The notes beneath the pieces were generated by a model. It made no database searches, was not told where the DNA came from, and was given only the letters and a program-made list of their open reading frames with translations. The translations under genes were made by a program, and so were the position numbers. Positions 2,567 to 62,860 of a stretch of 64,000 nucleotides of DNA are shown here, piece by piece (the stretch's first letter is position 1; every line of letters starts with the position of its first letter). The DNA comes from Candidatus Woesearchaeota archaeon (GTDB lineage Archaea > Nanobdellota > Nanobdellia > Woesearchaeales > UBA9642), in contig BPGB01000002.1 of NCBI GenBank assembly GCA_026002815.1, positions 62,001 through 126,000 on the forward strand, read 5' to 3'.

Positions 2567-2953
2567 ATGGAAACAGTAAAGATCAAAAGTATTGCAATTG
2601 TTTGGGGAAATATAAAAAAATTCATTGAAGAAGTAACTGAACATCTAAACCAAGAACGTAAAGATAGAAAGGATAAATATATAAATCTAGGTTTATCGAA
2701 TATCATGTCAGCTATAAGGAATAGAAACATTCCTTTTGAAGAAAAGGAGATTAAAATAGTTACACCTACCCTCGAAAATGGAGATAAGGAACAAATCCCA
2801 CCTACCTTCAAAGAAATTGAAGAGGAGATTAAAGAAGTTGCGCCGAATATAGTATTAATTCGGTGCGTGAGAAACATGTATCTACCATTTCTCATTCATG
2901 AGAATATTTTGTTTAAGAATGGAATGGTGTTTGTCTTCTCAGAAGACAAATAA
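2567..2953 (+). CDS. Hypothetical small protein, putative member of tandem paralogue cassette
   Basis: 'VKIKSIAIVWGNIKKFIEEVTEHL ... FKNGMVFVFSEDK'; RBS aagagga. Confidence 0.65.
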   Translation: METVKIKSIAIVWGNIKKFIEEVTEHLNQERKDRKDKYINLGLSNIMSAIRNRNIPFEEKEIKIVTPTLENGDKEQIPPTFKEIEEEIKEVAPNIVLIRCVRNMYLPFLIHENILFKNGMVFVFSEDK

Positions 2954-2972
2954 ATACATTATCACTATTATT

Positions 2973-3003
2973 AAATGCTCCCTCCTTGGGAGCATTTTTT
3001 TTA
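2973..3003. terminator. Bidirectional terminator between convergent genes
   Basis: AAATGCTCCC-TCCTT-GGGAGCATTT then T-run; flanked by plus gene ending 2953 and minus gene ending 3018. Confidence 0.85.
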
Positions 3004-3017
3004 ATCTTTTTTTATTT

Positions 3018-3278
3018 TTATTCTTGTTTTAAACTTTCCAAATATTCTTTACCAAATTTTAATTCTATTATTTTCTTAACAAGATCATAAGTTTCATTTA
3101 ATAGGGGATGATCTTTATATGATTTAGGAAGACGAGTATATAACCATATTAAATCTAACCGTTTACATAATGTAACATTCATTCTATATAAATTATCTTG
3201 AAGTTTGGAATTAAGATTAATAAGAGTCGCTTCTTTTTCTGTCATAATATTCAAAATTCCTTTTATAAATAAATTCAA
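3018..3278 (-). CDS. Hypothetical protein (86 aa or shorter)
   Basis: ORF between terminator and divergent promoter region. Confidence 0.55.
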   Translation of the reverse strand: MNLFIKGILNIMTEKEATLINLNSKLQDNLYRMNVTLCKRLDLIWLYTRLPKSYKDHPLLNETYDLVKKIIELKFGKEYLESLKQE

Positions 3279-3280
3279 TT

Positions 3281-3301
3281 CTATATATATAACATAATGA
3301 T
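3281..3301 (+). promoter_or_regulatory. Conserved AT-rich 21-bp element (copy P2)
   Basis: CTATATATATAACATAATGAT upstream of plus ORF 3338. Confidence 0.55.
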
Positions 3302-3337
3302 GGGAAAGTCCAACTTTTTTATTTAAAGGAGAAAAAA

Positions 3338-3628
3338 ATGGGCTATTTAATCTTCAAACTTATCTGCAAAAACAAAGGTCGGGGGTGTGATCATCGGGAG
3401 GAGATCAAGACCCTCCCGATTCCCCCCGGTTGGGAAGTAATTCTTGGGGGAGGCCGAGACCCTGAGGTTTTGGCCTTTAACCCCACCCTGTACGAGGCGG
3501 AGTATCTCTCCGCCCGTCGCAACGTATCCTACATCGAGGGCGAAGTGGCGAGAATTGCCACTTCCCCTCACAGTTGCTCAAAAATCAAAAAGCACCAGTC
3601 GTGGGTACTGGTGCGAAAGGAGGGTTAG
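3338..3628 (+). CDS. GC-rich hypothetical protein (96 aa)
   Basis: ORF with 'aaaggagaaaaaaATG' RBS, own element P2 and own terminator; codon usage GC-rich. Confidence 0.65.
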   Translation: MGYLIFKLICKNKGRGCDHREEIKTLPIPPGWEVILGGGRDPEVLAFNPTLYEAEYLSARRNVSYIEGEVARIATSPHSCSKIKKHQSWVLVRKEG

Positions 3629-3646
3629 AAAATGTGAAGAAATAAT

Positions 3647-3670
3647 AGCGGCGTAAAGCCGCTTTTTTTA
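3647..3670 (+). terminator. Rho-independent terminator
   Basis: AGCGGC-GTAAA-GCCGCT followed by T-run. Confidence 0.8.
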
Positions 3671-3691
3671 TTTATTTTTTTGTAAATTTTT

Positions 3692-3735
3692 TGAAAAAAT
3701 AAGAGGGATCTCCTTTTACAGAGATCCCTCTTATT
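3692..3735 (-). terminator. Terminator downstream of tail sheath gene
   Basis: AATAAGAGGGATCTC ... GAGATCCCTCTTATT; on minus strand followed by T-rich tract. Confidence 0.8.
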
Positions 3736-3762
3736 AAATAAATAAACTTATAACGTTAATTT

Positions 3763-5730
3763 TTATTCAACATAAAAACGGAGTTGAATCCGTTCAGTTG
3801 TACGAGTGGGTTCTAATGAAACGTTAATATGGAATGTCTTAGTCTTACGTTCATAATCTGTAGCGCCCACTTCAACACGATATGAATATAGACCACGATT
3901 TCTCTTAATATCTTCAAGGAAATTAATAACTTCTGCGGAAACTGCGCTCCAAGTCACTTCATCATTTTCTTCAAAAATAAATCCGCGAGCAAATTCTTTT
4001 AATGCTCTTTCGACATAAAGAACAAGACGAGTAATATTAATATCCTGTAGTGGGCCAGCCTTAACTTGAGTTGTAAGCTGGCTCCAAGGCGCATAACCTT
4101 CCTTAAACTTAGCAATTGTATTTACCTGATTGAGATAAAGTTGATCTCTATCTCCTTGACGTGGAACATATCGGGTCTCTTTGATATTTTGAATAGCGGT
4201 ACGATTAAAACCAGCCGGGGCCGCATATAATGAGGCTACCGTATCATTTCTAGGAATAAGATATGACATATGATATGACGGAGCTACCCAAATATCTTGA
4301 CCTGTGAATTGATCGTAAACTTTTGAATAATTGTCATAAACTGCCACAAAATAAGAATTAAATGGAAGTGTATTATCTCTCACATTAATAGCATCTGAAG
4401 CTGACGCATTATCACCCATGTCTAAAATTGCGATACAATCTTTGCGAAGTTCATACGCTAATTGGGCAATTGAAGTTTTAACAGTATTTGGATAACCAGC
4501 GTCAAATACGACATTAAAATAATAATTTTCTGTATCTACAACTGCTCTTTCATAAGCAGATTCAGCGCCAGCTACAAATCCAATAGCCTTTGGATTCTTT
4601 AAATTCCCAGTATAAGCGTTAGCTAAAATTTGATCGGCAACATTCGTATTTAATGTACCATTTGTATTAATCAAAGATCCATCAGAACCATATCTAAAAG
4701 GCACTGGTGATATAAATTGAGTCGAAATATCGACATCTGATTTTTTAATAATATAAGAAACAATATTATTTATATCAAATGAAGCATCTTTGGTTGCGAA
4801 ACCCACAGTTGTTCCTAACTTACTTGTATATAATTGAATTTTTGTTGGATCGGCAAGCGTAGTATTTGTGGCAGTCCACCCTGTGGCTTTTCTTCCCCGA
4901 CGATCATACATAATTATGTAATAGCCAGCTTTCCAATCTTCAAAATCTTGTCCGCTATCTGTCAAAGTTGTAGTCACATTATCTAATGAAAGTGTGCCAA
5001 CTTCACGATCATAAATTCTGAATGCCTCGTTATAACCAGAAGCAATATTACCATTGTCTGTTTCAGTCAATGCACGTAAAATAGTAGAATATTTTTCTAA
5101 TACATAAGGAAGATAAAGAGATTCTCCATCTGTCCCAGTCGCATTAGGATCAAATGAAACTGTAAATGATTCAATAATTATATTTGAACCATCATCTTGA
5201 AGAGCATATACATCCATAATATATTCATCGTTTGCGACAGGATTACTCACAGGAGTAAATTTAACAGATAAATTATTATAATATTGACCACGACCAATCG
5301 CATATAAAATACAAATCGGATAACCGGTTCCACCACCATATGATGTAAAATCTCTTAAATTGGTTTTAAGTTCTTCTAATGAATTCATATCTGGTAACTG
5401 TTCAACAGTTACCAGCCCATCCACAATTGAAATTCTAATATTCGCATATGTGGCGTCATCGGGTAAAGCACGTATAAAATAAAGTGAACCAGCCTCACTA
5501 AGAAAATTAAATGCATTATAAAGACCCTGACTATAAAGACGCCCGTATTTATTAATATTAGGTTTACCAAATTCACCAATTAAAGCTTCTTGACTAGAGA
5601 TAAAACGAAGTTTATTATCTTCGCCCTTTTCTGTTAGGGCTACGATAAATCCGACCGTGCTTGGTACGGCACTTACGTAATTCCCTAACTGAATAATTTG
5701 GGAATAAACACCAGCAGATTCATTTGCCAT
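3763..5730 (-). CDS. Contractile tail sheath protein
   Basis: 655 aa; typical N-terminus (MANESAGVYSQIIQLGNYVSAVPSTVGFIVALTEKGEDN...) and C-terminal domain '...YSYRVEVGATDYERKTKTFHINVSLEPTRTTERIQLRFYVE'. Confidence 0.9.
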   Translation of the reverse strand: MANESAGVYSQIIQLGNYVSAVPSTVGFIVALTEKGEDNKLRFISSQEALIGEFGKPNINKYGRLYSQGLYNAFNFLSEAGSLYFIRALPDDATYANIRISIVDGLVTVEQLPDMNSLEELKTNLRDFTSYGGGTGYPICILYAIGRGQYYNNLSVKFTPVSNPVANDEYIMDVYALQDDGSNIIIESFTVSFDPNATGTDGESLYLPYVLEKYSTILRALTETDNGNIASGYNEAFRIYDREVGTLSLDNVTTTLTDSGQDFEDWKAGYYIIMYDRRGRKATGWTATNTTLADPTKIQLYTSKLGTTVGFATKDASFDINNIVSYIIKKSDVDISTQFISPVPFRYGSDGSLINTNGTLNTNVADQILANAYTGNLKNPKAIGFVAGAESAYERAVVDTENYYFNVVFDAGYPNTVKTSIAQLAYELRKDCIAILDMGDNASASDAINVRDNTLPFNSYFVAVYDNYSKVYDQFTGQDIWVAPSYHMSYLIPRNDTVASLYAAPAGFNRTAIQNIKETRYVPRQGDRDQLYLNQVNTIAKFKEGYAPWSQLTTQVKAGPLQDINITRLVLYVERALKEFARGFIFEENDEVTWSAVSAEVINFLEDIKRNRGLYSYRVEVGATDYERKTKTFHINVSLEPTRTTERIQLRFYVE

Positions 5731-6707: not shown

Positions 6708-7151
6708 TTATATCGAAATTAGTTTCGATTCATATTCTTTTTTATATCTATTTAATTTAGATGTCAATAATAAAATTTTTCTTTCAAGTAATTTGTTTTG
6801 TTTTTTTGTTTTAATTTTTTCTAATTCCTGAATTCGCTTTTCAAGAGATAAAATTTTTGCAGATAAAATACACAATTCATATTTTTTTGGATCATTTATA
6901 AATGATTGACATATAGAAGTTGTGCTATTCATATATTTCATATATACGTCATATGATGATCTTAATGTAAGATAAAGAAATAAAATTTTTGGATCAGCCA
7001 TACGAGCAATAAGAGTTAAAACCCCAGTTGAATGAAAAATAGGGGTCACATCGACCCCTATTTCACTAAATACATTTAATATATCTTTTATTTCATTTAT
7101 ATAGTTTTTAATTTTCATTTTTTCCAAATTTTTTCCTTTAATTTTTGCCAA
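6708..7151 (-). CDS. Hypothetical protein, coiled-coil C-terminus
   Basis: ORF 147 aa; start may be the internal ATG (MKIKNYINEI...). Confidence 0.6.
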   Translation of the reverse strand: MAKIKGKNLEKMKIKNYINEIKDILNVFSEIGVDVTPIFHSTGVLTLIARMADPKILFLYLTLRSSYDVYMKYMNSTTSICQSFINDPKKYELCILSAKILSLEKRIQELEKIKTKKQNKLLERKILLLTSKLNRYKKEYESKLISI

Positions 7152-8713
7152 GGTGATTTATTTAATTGATTAATATTATCATTATCATTATCTACATTTT
7201 TATTCACCGAATCATCTTCCGTTGTTTGATTATCCAATTTAATCACATTAACTGATTCAACGATGGGATTAATCCCTTGTTTAACCCACTCTAGTTTTAC
7301 AGAAATATCTTCCATTACCCAAGCGTCAATCATAAAATCATTAATATATCTATACGAAAGATAGCCGTACCCATTTTCACCCCATCGTGAACCCCATGAA
7401 TTTTTGAATTTAAAAAGTTGTCGTTCACGATCATATCCAACTAAACAAACTGCATGTCCACCATAATGTAACCAGGGATTTCTTGGATATGGAACAATAC
7501 CATTTTGGCCTACATAAAAGATTTCTTCAAAACAAATAATTCCAATTACAACTGGACCTTTAGAATATAGACTATATTCTAATTCTGGAATAGAAGTAAT
7601 TCGATAATATTTACCTCCAAAATTCCAACGAGCTATTAATTTAGCCCAAGGTGTTGGTTTTCCTAACTCTATATCACTATATACCCAACCTTCTTCAGGA
7701 GGAATCCCTTCTTTTTGTAAAACTTTTAATGCATAACGAATTGAAGTTCCTTCTTCATTGGGCCAAGGATCAATCTGTTTTGCTTTATGATAAATCCATT
7801 GCTCACTTAAATCATATTGTTCATTTTCTCTTCGATAATATTTTCCTTGTTGGACTTCGCGTAAATATTCTTTTCTTTCTTGCCATTCTTTTACGGCAGT
7901 AACAGCAAAACCTACACACGAATTTCCTGAAATAAGAATTTTATCATAACGTCTTGTAATAAGAATTCCATTTGGAATTTCTGCACAATATACCATACCA
8001 TCGTAATTTTTAAAATCTAAATCCTTTTTAGGATCTAATACAAGTGTCTTAATATTTGACTTCATTAAATCATCTTGATTTGTTACATATGGAATACTAA
8101 ATATAAAATCAATAGTTTGAATTTTCTTAAAAACATAATAATCTTCAAATTTTTTAATTTCATTTAACCATCGTTTCAAATACATACGATGATCAGGGGT
8201 AAGCATAAAATTCAAAGAAGGATGTTTACTTATATACATTGGCCCCCGATAATAATATTCAATAATATGAATTGGTTTCTGATAAATAATTTCATTTGTT
8301 TCTCTATCGATTGTCGCAAATAAATCATCTTTTGTCGTATCTTTAAAATACTTCCATCCATCTTTTGTTAATACTTCTGTCTTTTCATCATGACACCCTT
8401 TACGTCCCTGATCTTTCACAGGAGACATTTCGGGTGTATAATCAATTTTCGATGGAAGTTCAGTCCGTAATGGAACAAAACTTTTTAAAAGGAAGTCTCT
8501 TTTATCAGGATCATCAAATTTATAATTAAGAGGTTTACCAAAAACATCTGCGGTTTTTGATTCCAATGGTTTAACAATTTCAAAGTCGATAGAACCAGAA
8601 GATTTTAAGTATTTTAATTGATTAATTACATTTAAATCTGTAATTTCTACTTCCGAATCTTGCGCATATAATTTCCCACCTACGGTAGAATTTGTTTTAA
8701 ATCGAATAATCAT
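7115..8713 (-). CDS. Papain-like (C1-type) cysteine peptidase interrupted by an intein
   Basis: Extein 'SPVKDQGRKG//SCVGFAVTA' (nucleophile Cys), 'HYGGHAVCLVGYD' (His), 'FKNSWGSRWGENGYGY' (Asn); intein residues 107-264 between. Confidence 0.88.
   Translation of the reverse strand: MIIRFKTNSTVGGKLYAQDSEVEITDLNVINQLKYLKSSGSIDFEIVKPLESKTADVFGKPLNYKFDDPDKRDFLLKSFVPLRTELPSKIDYTPEMSPVKDQGRKGCHDEKTEVLTKDGWKYFKDTTKDDLFATIDRETNEIIYQKPIHIIEYYYRGPMYISKHPSLNFMLTPDHRMYLKRWLNEIKKFEDYYVFKKIQTIDFIFSIPYVTNQDDLMKSNIKTLVLDPKKDLDFKNYDGMVYCAEIPNGILITRRYDKILISGNSCVGFAVTAVKEWQERKEYLREVQQGKYYRRENEQYDLSEQWIYHKAKQIDPWPNEEGTSIRYALKVLQKEGIPPEEGWVYSDIELGKPTPWAKLIARWNFGGKYYRITSIPELEYSLYSKGPVVIGIICFEEIFYVGQNGIVPYPRNPWLHYGGHAVCLVGYDRERQLFKFKNSWGSRWGENGYGYLSYRYINDFMIDAWVMEDISVKLEWVKQGINPIVESVNVIKLDNQTTEDDSVNKNVDNDNDNINQLNKSPWQKLKEKIWKK
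7922..8395 (-). other. Mini-intein (about 158 aa) within papain-like peptidase
   Basis: Starts C107 (CHDEKTEVLTKDGWK, block A), 'FMLTPDHRMYL' (block B TxxH), 'VYCAEIPNGILITRRYDKILISGN|S' (blocks F/G), Ser at +1. No room for a homing-endonuclease domain. Confidence 0.88.
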
Positions 8714-8728: not shown

Positions 8729-9280
8729 TTATCGAAGTAAATCAATCAATTCTTTATCTTTCATAAGATCTTTTAAAAGCAATTCTTCATCTTCCGTTAA
8801 AACACTCTTTTGAGATTTTTTAGATTTTTGCTGTATAGAACTATTTTGTTGCATCTTCGCTTTTCTATTTTCCAATGATTTATTTTCAGAGTTTTGAATA
8901 TATTCCATAACCTTCTCTAACAAGATTAAAGACTTATCTGGTTTTTCAATTTCTTCAGGTTCTTTATTATTTTTTTGTTCATCAACTTTAGTATTATCAT
9001 TTTTTAAATTTTGAATGTTATTAACATTATTAGGAATATTATTATCAGATAATACTTTTTCTATATGAGCTACTTTATATTTAACACGACTCCAAATATA
9101 AACTGCAACTGCAATTGCTTGTGAAAGATATGTAAGAACCTTTTCAATATTATTTGAAATTTGATCTGGTTTTAAACTAAATAAATTACCATCAATGCCA
9201 AATGATGTAATAATCAAAAATGCAATTACCAACCAAAATTCTGTAGTCTTGATTCCACGAGTCAGATTTCCCAAATTCAT
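8729..9280 (-). CDS. Small membrane protein, possible holin
   Basis: Two N-terminal hydrophobic segments (EFWLVIAFLIITSFG; VLTYLSQAIAVAVYIW) and long charged tail; adjacent to peptidase. Confidence 0.4.
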   Translation of the reverse strand: MNLGNLTRGIKTTEFWLVIAFLIITSFGIDGNLFSLKPDQISNNIEKVLTYLSQAIAVAVYIWSRVKYKVAHIEKVLSDNNIPNNVNNIQNLKNDNTKVDEQKNNKEPEEIEKPDKSLILLEKVMEYIQNSENKSLENRKAKMQQNSSIQQKSKKSQKSVLTEDEELLLKDLMKDKELIDLLR

Positions 9281-10539: not shown

Positions 10540-13500
10540 TTAAACTCTTGTTAGTTTAAATGAACTTACATGACAATTTGAAATACCAACTGAATTAAAA
10601 CTTGATGTATTTCCATCACTTAAATTATACGTACCATAAAATGTTCCGTCAATATATATTGAAATGCTTATTGAAGGTGCAGATGTCCTGTCAAAAATAA
10701 TTTTTAAAGTATGGCCTCCTGGACTATCAAAAATTTCATTTGCATTGGTTAGAACTGTTGCAGAATAAACTGGCAAACCAGAATGAAATACATTTATTAT
10801 TAAGTTATTAGGATCGAAAGATTTTCTACTTAAAGTTATCCGAGTTGTAGTTTTATTAACAGAGGCGATAATAATAGAAAAATATTGAGAAAGAATTGTG
10901 GTTTCAATTTCATATTTATTTTGCGTTGAAATATTAAATTTATCTACCCAAAGTGTCCCAAAATCCGTTGATACCGATCCAGACAATAAATTAAATGCAT
11001 TTGGTGTAGTTGTATACCATGAATGTCCCGTCTCGGTAACATGTTCTAATATAGTTGTTTCTGATGAATGAAAATTAAACTCATCTAAGAAATATGATGC
11101 ATTTGGATCATATACTCCTAATGTATAATTTTGAGTCGTCAAGGAATCTGCGGCTGCCCGTACTTCAACTGTTACATAATTTTTGCCGATATTTGATGAA
11201 GTTGGATTCCATGAAATTAAACCGGTGCTGCTATTAATTGTCATCCCACTAGGTGATGAAATTAAAGAATATGTAAGAGTTCTATTTAAAGGATCGATTG
11301 CGTTTACATCATATGAATATGATGTATTCACTTCCACAAAATGATTTGGAGATGAAGTTATTACCGGATTATCTTTAAAAAGAATAATTTCGCATACGTC
11401 ATTCATCCAAGGACAGTCAAAAATCTGATTTGCGTCATAATCTAACCATCCTGTCGCTTGAATAGCGTATATTACTTCACCACTCGTGCTATCTAATTCG
11501 TATCTATTATACATTGGAGCGTCTAAAACATCAATCTCAACTTCATTGATATGAGGCCCATTTACTGTATAATCCGCAGAATTTATTGTACTTAATCCAA
11601 TTCCACCATATCCAGCCCCGTAAATATATTCTGTCACATTTGTATCTTGAATTAAATCATATGTTATTATTAATGATCCATTTAAATAAATTTTAAATTT
11701 TCTGTTAATTAATTCGGCTTTTATTTCAAATGTAGAAGTTGTAATTGGGAACGGATTCAAATTTGTTCCATATATAATTTCTTCTGATTGTCCAGAAAAT
11801 TTCTGAACAATCCATATTTTTACAGATTTACTTGTAGCTGAAAAATATTGAAATTTAACTGCATAGTATTCTGGATCGCCTGAAAAATCACGACCTCTTA
11901 GAATTAGATATCCATATCCATTTTCACTATATCCATAAACATTTGCACGAATTCGGAAATTATATCCAATTGATTGTGTATTATAATAATACGCTGGAAT
12001 TTCATTTGCCGTTTTATCGACAACACGATTTAAATAAATATGTAAATTAGAAGATCCTGTAAACGGTTTCCAAGCACCACCATAGAATGTTGGAGTATGA
12101 TCTTGTAATAATGTATTATTAGCATTTGTAAAATTATCTAATACTCTATTTTGTTCAAAAATTTCTCTTTGACATGCTAAATATTCAATTGTACCATAGT
12201 TTTCAAACATTTCATAATTATCTTTATCATCAACTACGCCAATATCAAAATAGCTTCCTGTATCCCAAAATTCATATGGATCAGTTAACCGACCACTTTT
12301 GTTTTCAGGTTCACCATCAACATAATTTTGATCATAATAATTTGGTTTACTGTCCATAATCAAATAGTCATAAGCATGAAATTCTTCTTTAATAAAACCA
12401 ACATCTTCAACAATAATCGATTCAAATAAAGGCGTATTAAACAAATACGCAATATCAGCTTTACCTTGAATAAATCGTGCCCGCATGGGCTTAAAAAAAT
12501 TCAAAATCGTTTCTATATCTTTAAATAGATATTCACCTCCAATCATAATAGCGCCAATATTCGGAAAGTCAAGACGAATATTGGACATTACCCAATTTAC
12601 AAATTCTGTAAACAGCGCAATTAAACCATTTATTGGCTCGCCCGTTGAAAATAATTCATCAATATAATTTTTAATTTCTGGATTAAATGTTTCTAATATA
12701 GTTTCTTCAGATATAACTGGAAATGCTTCTAGAAATAAATGATAATTTAGGATATTAATTGTGTGATCTTCTATATATTTATCAAAATTTTGCTTTTTTA
12801 TTTGATTTGCTCGTAATCCATCTTTAGCTACAGGGCGACTTGTAATTTGACTATATTCTTCAATAATTTTATCATAATCTTTTTCTGAAGCAATTTCGAT
12901 ATCACCATGATAAAAATTAAAAATATCGATGGGAAGAGCCTCTATGAGACCCTTTGAAGGTGATATTGGTCTTGGAGATGGATCATAAACCGTATAATCA
13001 TTATTCAAAAATACAATATGCGTCGCTACCCCATAATCAGCACCAATATATGGCATTATATATAAACTATTCTTATCATAATCTATATATCGAATAGATC
13101 CATAACCATAAAAAAGATTACCACCCGAATTGGTAAATTTTACTAATTTATTTTCCAAATCATTAGTGACAGTATAGCTTTGTGGAAAAACAATGACATA
13201 TTTAGAACCGAATGATAATCCTAGTTCTTCCGTTACATATTTTCTTAACCCATATAATATAGACATATATAATTCTAATAGAGATAAATAAATACCACTT
13301 GATGAATTAATGATTCTATAGCGAATTACATAATCATTATATGTATCAGAAGCTTGAATTGTTACCGGAGAAATATCATTTCCAAGAATAATTTTTTCAA
13401 TTGTTGCGGTGTTACCATTTCCATCGGAAATAGTTTCACCTTCCTTCATAGATTTTGCTTTTGTATTAGAAACCGTAATTCGAGAATATGAAGAAGATAA

Positions 13501-57722: not shown

Positions 57723-58118
57723 ATGATCGATAAAATTAGTCCAACAATTATTCGAAAAGCGATAGAAGAAGCTAAGAAAAGTTCTCATAAAAGCCATCGC
57801 CTCGGTGCTGTAATTTTTAGTAATGGAACAAAAATTATTTCTTGGGGTCATAATCACTCTCAACGGGCTGCCAGAAGAGTGAATAGTAAATATTTAAAAT
57901 GGCCTAAGACAATCCATGCGGAAGTCGATGCAATATTAAAAAGTCGTACCGATTTAAAAAGAAAAAAGATTTTGGTGGTACGGATCAATAATCATGATCA
58001 ATTTCTTTTAGCAAAACCATGTGAATGGTGTCAACTATATTTAAAATACGTTGGTATTCGGCATGTTTATTATTCAATAAATAAGTATCCTTATATTGAG
58101 TATATGCGCCTCATTTGA
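57723..58118 (+). CDS. Cytidine/dCMP deaminase-like protein
   Basis: 'KTIHAEVDAILKS...LLAKPCEWCQLYLKYVGIRHVYYS' zinc-deaminase motifs. Confidence 0.85.
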   Translation: MIDKISPTIIRKAIEEAKKSSHKSHRLGAVIFSNGTKIISWGHNHSQRAARRVNSKYLKWPKTIHAEVDAILKSRTDLKRKKILVVRINNHDQFLLAKPCEWCQLYLKYVGIRHVYYSINKYPYIEYMRLI

Positions 58119-60896: not shown

Positions 60897-60922
60897 AAAT
60901 GCCCCCATTGGGGGCTTTTTTT
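60897..60922 (+). terminator. Rho-independent terminator
   Basis: GCCCCC-ATT-GGGGGC then TTTTTTT. Confidence 0.85.
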
Positions 60923-60949
60923 CCTATAATTTTTTTGGAGAATTTTATT

Positions 60950-62860
60950 ATGAGTTATATATGCCAAATATGTCGGAAAGACTTTAAAAGCCCTAAAGGA
61001 TTAGCAAAGCATGTGAACCAAAAACATAATATTTCATCTGAAGATTATTATGCACAATATATTAATTCTAATCCAATTCGATTTTGTCCATATTGTTTAG
61101 AATTGGATAATATAGAAACTCCATTAAGTTTTACTAATATCATCGAAGGATATAAGAAAACATGTAGAAAGCATTTGTATTTAAATGAAGAACGAGATCA
61201 AAAAATTAAAGAATCTTTAAGTAAATATGGTGGGGCTCCATTAAAAGATCCGAGAATTAAAGAGAAACAACAAAAAACATTAGAAGAACGATATGGAGTT
61301 AAAAATCCTTCTCAGGTAAAGGAATTTATAGAAAAAAGAAATAAAACTAGAGAATTAAAGAAAGAAGAAATTAGTAAAAATATTTCCCAAGCATTATGTA
61401 CTTCAGAAAAATTCAAAGAATCAGTTGAAAGAAAAAAGGAAACATTTTTAGAAAAGTATGGCGTAGATAATCCATCTAAATCGGATATAGTTAAGGAAAA
61501 AATTCGGCAAACGTTTTTAGAACGATATGGTGTAGAAGCGCCAATGCAAATAGATGAAATAAAAGAAAAAGCTAAGAAAACGAATTTGGAAAAGTATGGA
61601 GTTGAAAATCCTTTACAATCTGAAGTCATTAGGAAAAAAATTGAAAAAACAAATCTAAAAAAATACGGAGTTAAAAGCACATTATTAATTCCGGAAGTTA
61701 AAGAAAAAATTAAAAAAACTATGTTAAGGAAATATGGTGTAGATCGTTTTAGTAAAACAAAAGAATTTAGTCAGATAATAAAAAATAAAAATAAAGAACA
61801 ACTTTTTAAATATATGGATATTTTTCTTAAAGAAAATAATATTGAATTAATATCAGAATATACTAATGCGATAGACAAAAATCTAGAATTTAAATGTCTT
61901 ACATGTCAAAATAACTTTACTGATAAATGGTTTAATCTTAGGGCTAGAATTTATAAATGTCCTTATTGTGCTCCGGAATATGGAAAATCATCTATCGAAA
62001 ATGATATTTATGAATATATAAAAAGTTATATTGATGTTCCAATTCTAAGGAACGTTAGACCATTTGAAAATAATAGATTAGAATTAGATTTATATATTCC
62101 GGATTTTAATTTTGCAATTGAATTTAATGGTGTTTATTGGCATTCGGAATTTATAAGAAACAATAAAAATAGACATTTAATAAAAACCAGATTATGTGAA
62201 AAAGAAAATATTTCACTTTTTCATATATTTGATGATGAATGGTTATATAAACAAGATATTATTAAATCTATGATTTTAACCAAATTAAATCTTATTCAAA
62301 CAAAAATATTTGCGAGACATTGTATAATAGAAGAAATTTCATCATCAGAAATAAATCAATTTTATGAACAGAATCATTTACAAGGATATGCTTCTTATAA
62401 AGATCAAAAACATATTGTATTAAAATATAATAATGAAATTGTTTCAGCTATAACATTTAGTCAATCTCGATTTTCAAAACAATATGAATGGGAATTATTG
62501 AGATTTTGTAATCAAATAAATACAATTATTCCTGGTGGGTTAACTAGATTATTTAAATATTTTGTTAAAAATTATAATCCAACAAGTATTGTATGTTATT
62601 TAGAAAGACGATTAGGAATTCCATCAAAAGGATATGAATATTGTGGTTTTCAATTTAAAGAATTTACAAAACCGGGATATTGGTATGTGCATCCTAAAAA
62701 TAAATATCAAAGAGAATCTAGATTAAAATATCAAAAACATAAATTAGAAAAATTATTAGAATTTTTTGATCCAGAATTAACAGAAGAAGAGAATATGGAA
62801 TTAAATGGATACGCTAAAATTTGGGATTGTGGACAATATGTTTTAGAATGGTATAAATAA
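60950..62860 (+). CDS. Probable free-standing homing endonuclease (Zn finger + NUMOD-like repeats + nuclease domain)
   Basis: 'YICQICRKDFKSPKGLAKHVNQKH'; repeated 'KTxLEKYGVxNPxQSxxxKEKI'; 'LELDLYIPDFNFAIEFNGVYWHSE...LFHIFDDEW'; 'ELLRFCNQINTIIPGGLTRLFKYF...WDCGQYVLEW'. Confidence 0.7.
   Translation: MSYICQICRKDFKSPKGLAKHVNQKHNISSEDYYAQYINSNPIRFCPYCLELDNIETPLSFTNIIEGYKKTCRKHLYLNEERDQKIKESLSKYGGAPLKDPRIKEKQQKTLEERYGVKNPSQVKEFIEKRNKTRELKKEEISKNISQALCTSEKFKESVERKKETFLEKYGVDNPSKSDIVKEKIRQTFLERYGVEAPMQIDEIKEKAKKTNLEKYGVENPLQSEVIRKKIEKTNLKKYGVKSTLLIPEVKEKIKKTMLRKYGVDRFSKTKEFSQIIKNKNKEQLFKYMDIFLKENNIELISEYTNAIDKNLEFKCLTCQNNFTDKWFNLRARIYKCPYCAPEYGKSSIENDIYEYIKSYIDVPILRNVRPFENNRLELDLYIPDFNFAIEFNGVYWHSEFIRNNKNRHLIKTRLCEKENISLFHIFDDEWLYKQDIIKSMILTKLNLIQTKIFARHCIIEEISSSEINQFYEQNHLQGYASYKDQKHIVLKYNNEIVSAITFSQSRFSKQYEWELLRFCNQINTIIPGGLTRLFKYFVKNYNPTSIVCYLERRLGIPSKGYEYCGFQFKEFTKPGYWYVHPKNKYQRESRLKYQKHKLEKLLEFFDPELTEEENMELNGYAKIWDCGQYVLEWYK

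Follow-up and report, generated by a model that had tools for sequence, protein, structure and literature searches.

A predicted class 1 mini-intein adjoining the catalytic cysteine of a papain-like protease in a large phage

The window (the whole stretch of 64,000 nucleotides analysed here) lies within a 211-kb contig of a 1.7-Mb metagenome bin, and the contig is known from one metagenome-binned sequence only. Genes for a T4-like major capsid protein, a tail sheath and tail fibre were identified in the window, so the DNA is that of a large contractile-tailed phage; no terminal repeat was seen in the 211-kb contig. One minus-strand ORF encodes a precursor of 532 amino acids, in which a papain-like protease is split by an insert of 158 amino acids (Table 1). 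The gene directly upstream of it (8729-9280, minus strand) encodes a small, possibly holin-like protein that probably has a membrane segment; this protein is conserved in the closest relative of the locus (L001, 41%). The window also carries a cytidine/dCMP deaminase gene (57723-58118, plus strand; PF00383, E 6e-12) and a DUF7487 / PHROG homing-endonuclease-like gene of 653 amino acids with a zinc-finger-like N-terminus (60899-62860, plus strand), which is beside the Gp23-type major capsid gene starting from 62939.

Table 1. Features of the interrupted protease gene (positions in the window)
Feature	Position	Strand	Basis
Intein-interrupted papain-like protease gene	7115..8713	-	ATG 8713, stop 7115-7117; Peptidase_C1, phrog_16701
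N-extein, residues 1-106, with SPVKDQGRKG and oxyanion-hole Gln102	8396..8713	-	Alignment to intein-free L001-L010
Predicted class 1 mini-intein, residues 107-264 (C107-N264), 158 aa, 19.1 kDa	7922..8395	-	12 invariant residues; AlphaFold2 + Foldseek Hint fold
Intein block A CHDEKTEVLTKDGW, Cys1 = C107	8354..8395	-	Alignment A3/A5
Intein block B LTPDHRM; T66, H69 (precursor T172, H175)	8183..8203	-	Invariant in A3/A5
Linker, intein residues 79-130, endonuclease position in relatives	8006..8161	-	Alignment; low-confidence model loop 87-118
Intein blocks F and G YDGMVYCAEIPNGILITRRYDKILISGN; F:4 Cys C137 (precursor C243), penultimate Gly263, terminal Asn264	7922..8005	-	Alignment A3/A5
C-extein, residues 265-532: S265 = Ser+1, C266 catalytic, His420, Asn438, disordered tail	7118..7921	-	

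By translation, the insert starts with CHDEKTEVLTKDGW and ends with ILISGN, after which the protease continues with SCVGFA. Excision of residues 107-264 gives SPVKDQGRKGSCVGFAV, in which Gln102 stands six residues before the catalytic Cys. This translation agrees with the residue placement in an earlier, sequence-only reading of the same DNA. The interval given there for the insert, 7915-8398, was at the right place but a few bases too wide, and included Gly106, Ser265 and Cys266. The computed masses were 62.7 kDa for the precursor, 43.7 kDa for the spliced protease and 19.1 kDa for the intein, the last two being near the ~43 and ~18 kDa expected in that reading. GC content of the insert is 25.5%, compared with 32% in the exteins.

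The C-terminal part of the precursor matched Peptidase_C1 (PF00112) with E 1.4e-12, at 48.6 bits well above the cut-off of 20.7, and the PHROG peptidase family phrog_16701 was matched with E 8.7e-21. The nearest solved structure to the exteins is xylellain (PDB 3ois), a bacterial papain-like protease which is alike but has no intein (sequence E 1e-17; fold of the precursor model E 1.1e-14). The papain active site pairs Gln19 with Cys25. In the precursor the papain set is complete (Q102, C266, H420 and N438), with His420 and Asn438 invariant in alignment A1, and Gln102 and Cys266 are 164 residues apart.

The empty site was found in many homologues. A scripted census of viral contigs and bacterial genomes gave at least 131 distinct uninterrupted homologues, and the spacing from Gln to Cys was six in 130 of these 131, with Ser directly before the catalytic Cys in 114. 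A few extra homologues outside the pattern of the script were uninterrupted by eye. The intein-free homologues in A1 read VK[DNS]Q..LG/SC[VT]GFA across the junction (marked here by a slash), so the papain segment which had been proposed to be restored by removing residues 107-264 is matched with both the alignment and the spacing, and the Cys after the junction, whose lack in intein-free homologues would have spoken against the earlier reading, is present in them. L001 is the closest relative found. It is insert-free, reads SPVKDQKNLG/SCTGFA, and shows 68% identity in A1 (60% in the N-extein and 67% in the C-extein). Synteny is also kept over most neighbouring genes: those for metallophosphoesterase, membrane protein, sheath and further structural proteins are in matching order with 41-79% identity. 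In L001, the protease is separated from the next gene common to both loci by an NMN-adenylyltransferase-like gene, a P-loop kinase-like gene and an unknown gene (10766-12383, plus strand), which are absent there in the window.

The first ~75 amino acids of the insert showed 39-51% identity to intein N-termini in many phages, and a search with the insert matched 30 phage loci. Identity to the Lak-A1 intein was 48.7% (E 2e-13), and BLAST against another phage locus (L013) gave 51% over the N-terminal 76 amino acids and 55% over the C-terminal 29. Both ends could be read in 23 relatives in alignment A5 (the intein of the window excluded) and in one more, from a Lak phage, in A3. These relatives (about 24-25 phage inteins) are 321-453 amino acids long, and in them a LAGLIDADG endonuclease region separates block B from block F. 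The profile of the family hits both solved inteins and I-DmoI-type / LAGLIDADG endonucleases. Twelve residues are invariant in the family (C1, G13, G51, T66, H69, Y131, G133, Y136, C137, R148, G157 and N158). The intein of the window kept all 12 of them and lost the endonuclease, and a linker of 52 residues replaces the far longer LAGLIDADG region of the relatives.

C107 stands at position 1 of the insert, N264 is terminal and S265 is at +1, and the positions of the block B TxxH (LTPDH) and of block F (YDGMVYC) are invariant across about 24 phage inteins. The phage class 1 inteins compared (24 viral-contig loci and the Lak phage) have the same Cys1, T-x-x-H (mostly TP[ND]H), YDGMVYC-type block F, Gly-Asn end and Ser or Cys at +1, whereas the element in the window is only 158 amino acids, has no LAGLIDADG region and is hosted by a papain-like protease. 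Thus the blocks A (Cys1), B (TxxH) and F, the terminal Asn, the Ser+1 and the lack of a homing-endonuclease domain, all noted before, were confirmed. Two features had escaped that reading, namely a penultimate Gly in place of His and a Cys at position F:4. The penultimate Gly is present in every aligned relative, and Ser+1 and Gly-Asn are normal for the family; F:4 Cys together with Gly-Asn is found throughout the family, whose members reside in many other proteins. Cys is the second most common residue at F:4 (PMC4031507). The Gly-Asn C-terminus is also the likeness that we draw to the RDF intein in gp51 of Bethlehem (PMC5050341). The F:13 His, a helper in many inteins, was not evident in the intein of the window.

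AlphaFold2 modelling of the intein on A5 gave pLDDT 77, with values >90 in most splicing blocks and <50 in the loop 87-118. The best Foldseek match of this predicted model was the 6zgq intein (E 2.9e-7, prob 1.00), and the best 50 matches were all Hint-fold proteins: inteins, bacterial/ciliate intein-like (BIL) domains or hedgehog domains. On the insert alone, TIGR01445 scored E 0.046, at 14.7 bits below its cut-off of 24.5, and Pfam gave no match; a curated intein model is a detection tool and no biochemical definition, and at E 0.01 TIGR01445 matches just 6 of 24 family members. Therefore the intein was identified by its relatives and fold, and the Hint domain expected earlier is matched at the level of predicted structure but not of profile score. 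Assignment to class 3, which is defined by the lack of a position-1 nucleophile and by a WCT triplet (B:12 Trp, F:4 Cys, G:5 Thr) (PMC5050341), was rejected, since Cys1 is present and WCT is absent (B:12 Met, F:4 Cys, G:5 Ser). Judging by its relatives and its modelled fold, we place the insert among the class 1 mini-inteins and derive it from a phage intein family that bears LAGLIDADG. The earlier view of a mini-intein adjoining the catalytic Cys of a papain-like protease in a phage contig, where the nucleophile comes directly after Ser+1, is supported.

A second interrupted protease was found in L104 (IMGVR_UViG_3300048796_000091), a 55.7-kb phage contig with head-tail adaptor and DHFR genes. 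Its papain-like protease ORF of 671 amino acids (2726-4708, plus strand) is interrupted in the identical active-site segment, as NQGETGS/C...VHN/CTGNAS, by an insert of 410 amino acids which matched Intein_splicing (E 2.5e-21) and HNH_3. An intein-free relative (L144, 48%) reads QGQLGSCTGN. The L104 element differs from that in the window (158 amino acids, Ser+1) by its length, by bearing HNH and by its penultimate His. Because the insertion is one residue further downstream, the role of +1 nucleophile falls to the catalytic Cys in L104. No significant similarity was found between the L104 insert and the window intein; the two inteins are unrelated, and therefore the active site was invaded at least twice.

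The sequence-only reading had suggested that the element may be fixed. This is not matched with its distribution: the closest syntenic relative and at least 131 distinct homologues are insert-free, and a second copy of the allele was not found. The intein is sporadic, not fixed. Exact junction-peptide scans of IMG/VR (HN/CTGNA, GN/SCVGFA and QGxxG/CHDE) revealed neither another protease with an intein nor a second copy of the allele; the HNCTGNA match was L104 itself, and the remaining hits were either short reads out of frame or unrelated proteins. In two alignment-based scans (best 80 loci each), L104 was the sole second interrupted protease among the matches listed, and more may exist. Other genomes of the bin's family gave no match. 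Among huge phages, the protease of LR756511 is uninterrupted, and what the L104 query hit in LR756508 and LR756501 were inteins hosted by other proteins. The match in L057 extended over 1.7 kb, yet the protease there is uninterrupted and the insert is in the adjoining metallophosphoesterase. This intein-like insert in another large phage (L057:4799-6868, plus strand) is in a GNH motif (GNHGR/C...SGN/SSGHE), and curated intein models did not match it.

On the residues kept and the predicted fold, it is very probable that the mini-intein undergoes standard class 1 splicing between Gly106 and Ser265, one residue before Cys266, and that it is a tolerated parasite. Cys107 would begin with an N-S acyl shift at Gly106, aided by the block B TxxH. 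The N-extein would be taken over by Ser265, then Asn264 would cyclise, with Gly263 replacing the usual His, and an O-N shift would link Gly106 to Ser265. The products would be the intein of 19.1 kDa and a protease of 43.7 kDa with Gln102 and Cys266 again at papain spacing. From papain chemistry, the precursor should lack protease activity, because the intein parts the oxyanion-hole Gln from the catalytic Cys. A possible obstacle is the catalytic Cys at +2, which might disturb the step at Ser+1. AlphaFold modelling of the full precursor was poor across the intein, and geometry was unreadable there.

By analogy, the intein of the window probably splices fast and spontaneously. Complete splicing in E. 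coli was shown for a mycobacteriophage intein whose penultimate residue is Gly, and changing this Gly to His slows splicing (Kelley et al., PMC5050341). As the nearest analogue in the literature, that intein speaks for spontaneous splicing in the present case too. For this reason the intein of the window is best read as a tolerated parasite which lost its endonuclease. Its placement at the active site would be explained because such sites are conserved and imprecise loss there ruins the enzyme. Phage inteins generally insert beside conserved catalytic residues (PMC5050341), so the location alone gives no sign of regulation.

The sequence-only reading had raised a timing switch operated by redox, metal or temperature. 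In such conditional splicing the intein would keep a potentially toxic protease as a zymogen until a cue (redox, temperature or assembly) frees it. The catalytic Cys beside the junction would be an ideal control site, inhibitory disulfides are conceivable among Cys1, F:4 Cys and Cys+2, and other inteins are redox-responsive (for example PMC6195587). The loss of the endonuclease while all splicing residues stay, and the second, unrelated intein at the same active site in the L104 phage, also fit with this idea. However, the sequence gives no hint of regulation or of a sensor; F:4 Cys and Gly-Asn occur throughout the family in other hosts and therefore are no adaptation to the protease; the Gly-Asn phage intein of PMC5050341 splices completely without a cue; and essentially all relatives are intein-free. 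So we regard conditional splicing as quite unlikely. It is very unlikely, too, that the pair are natural intein-zymogens, that is, that two unrelated inteins were independently recruited at the catalytic Cys segment, one adjoining the Cys and one using it as nucleophile, with splicing timed by a cue to the stage of infection.

The Hint domain might instead be degenerate or capable of cleavage only, as in bacterial intein-like domains; it would then not ligate the exteins and would leave the protease dead or split. An ageing element would fit with the endonuclease loss and the AT-rich insert, and the penultimate His is absent. But all 12 invariant residues and Ser+1 are intact, the exteins retain the full papain triad in an open frame, and the penultimate Gly is universal in the family, which makes this reading very unlikely as well. 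Hardly credible is an element retained as a domain of the mature protein, or an intron removed at the RNA level: phage in-frame insertions unrecognisable as inteins exist, such as the methylase element of ShiLan (PMC11855218), and the ShiLan methylase gene, though not necessarily its published element, matches the first ~75 amino acids of the insert at 39%, but here the in-frame protein itself has the blocks A, B, F and G together with a predicted Hint fold, and an insertion kept between Gln102 and Cys266 would destroy the papain site.

Splicing of a class 1 mini-intein is thus the reading we prefer. Inteins exist in the protease Lon. A chloroplast ClpP intein is known as well (PMC5784728, citing Wang and Liu 1997). 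As in the window, a protease is interrupted there and the intein must leave for a working enzyme, but neither ClpP nor Lon belongs to C1; both are serine proteases from different clans. Open-access literature on inteins in papain, cysteine protease, phage and peptidase, of which our coverage was partial, gave no case in the C1 (papain) family, and so the present one counts, provisionally, as previously unreported. With it, papain-like cysteine proteases are added to the enzymes that inteins have entered at their catalytic centre, in this family twice and by unrelated inteins; in L104 the protease's own catalytic thiol must serve as splicing nucleophile. The two loci offer a simple system with loss of activity as readout for asking whether active-site inteins are tolerated parasites or also regulators. 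If splicing is spontaneous, as expected, the window holds a clean but ordinary example. As a compact Gly-Asn element of 158 residues, the intein of the window may also serve as a tool.

Outside the window, the same contig holds two further inteins that have HNH-like regions (G000:C2:131116-131358, minus strand, and 199789-200016, plus strand; L139 and L140). By reading of the sequences, one host was named as a portal-like protein and the other as a ribonucleotide reductase. A LAGLIDADG-type intein in a DegT/DnrJ-like aminotransferase (G000:C6:20655-20900, plus strand; L141) lies on another contig of the bin, which probably does not belong to the phage contig.
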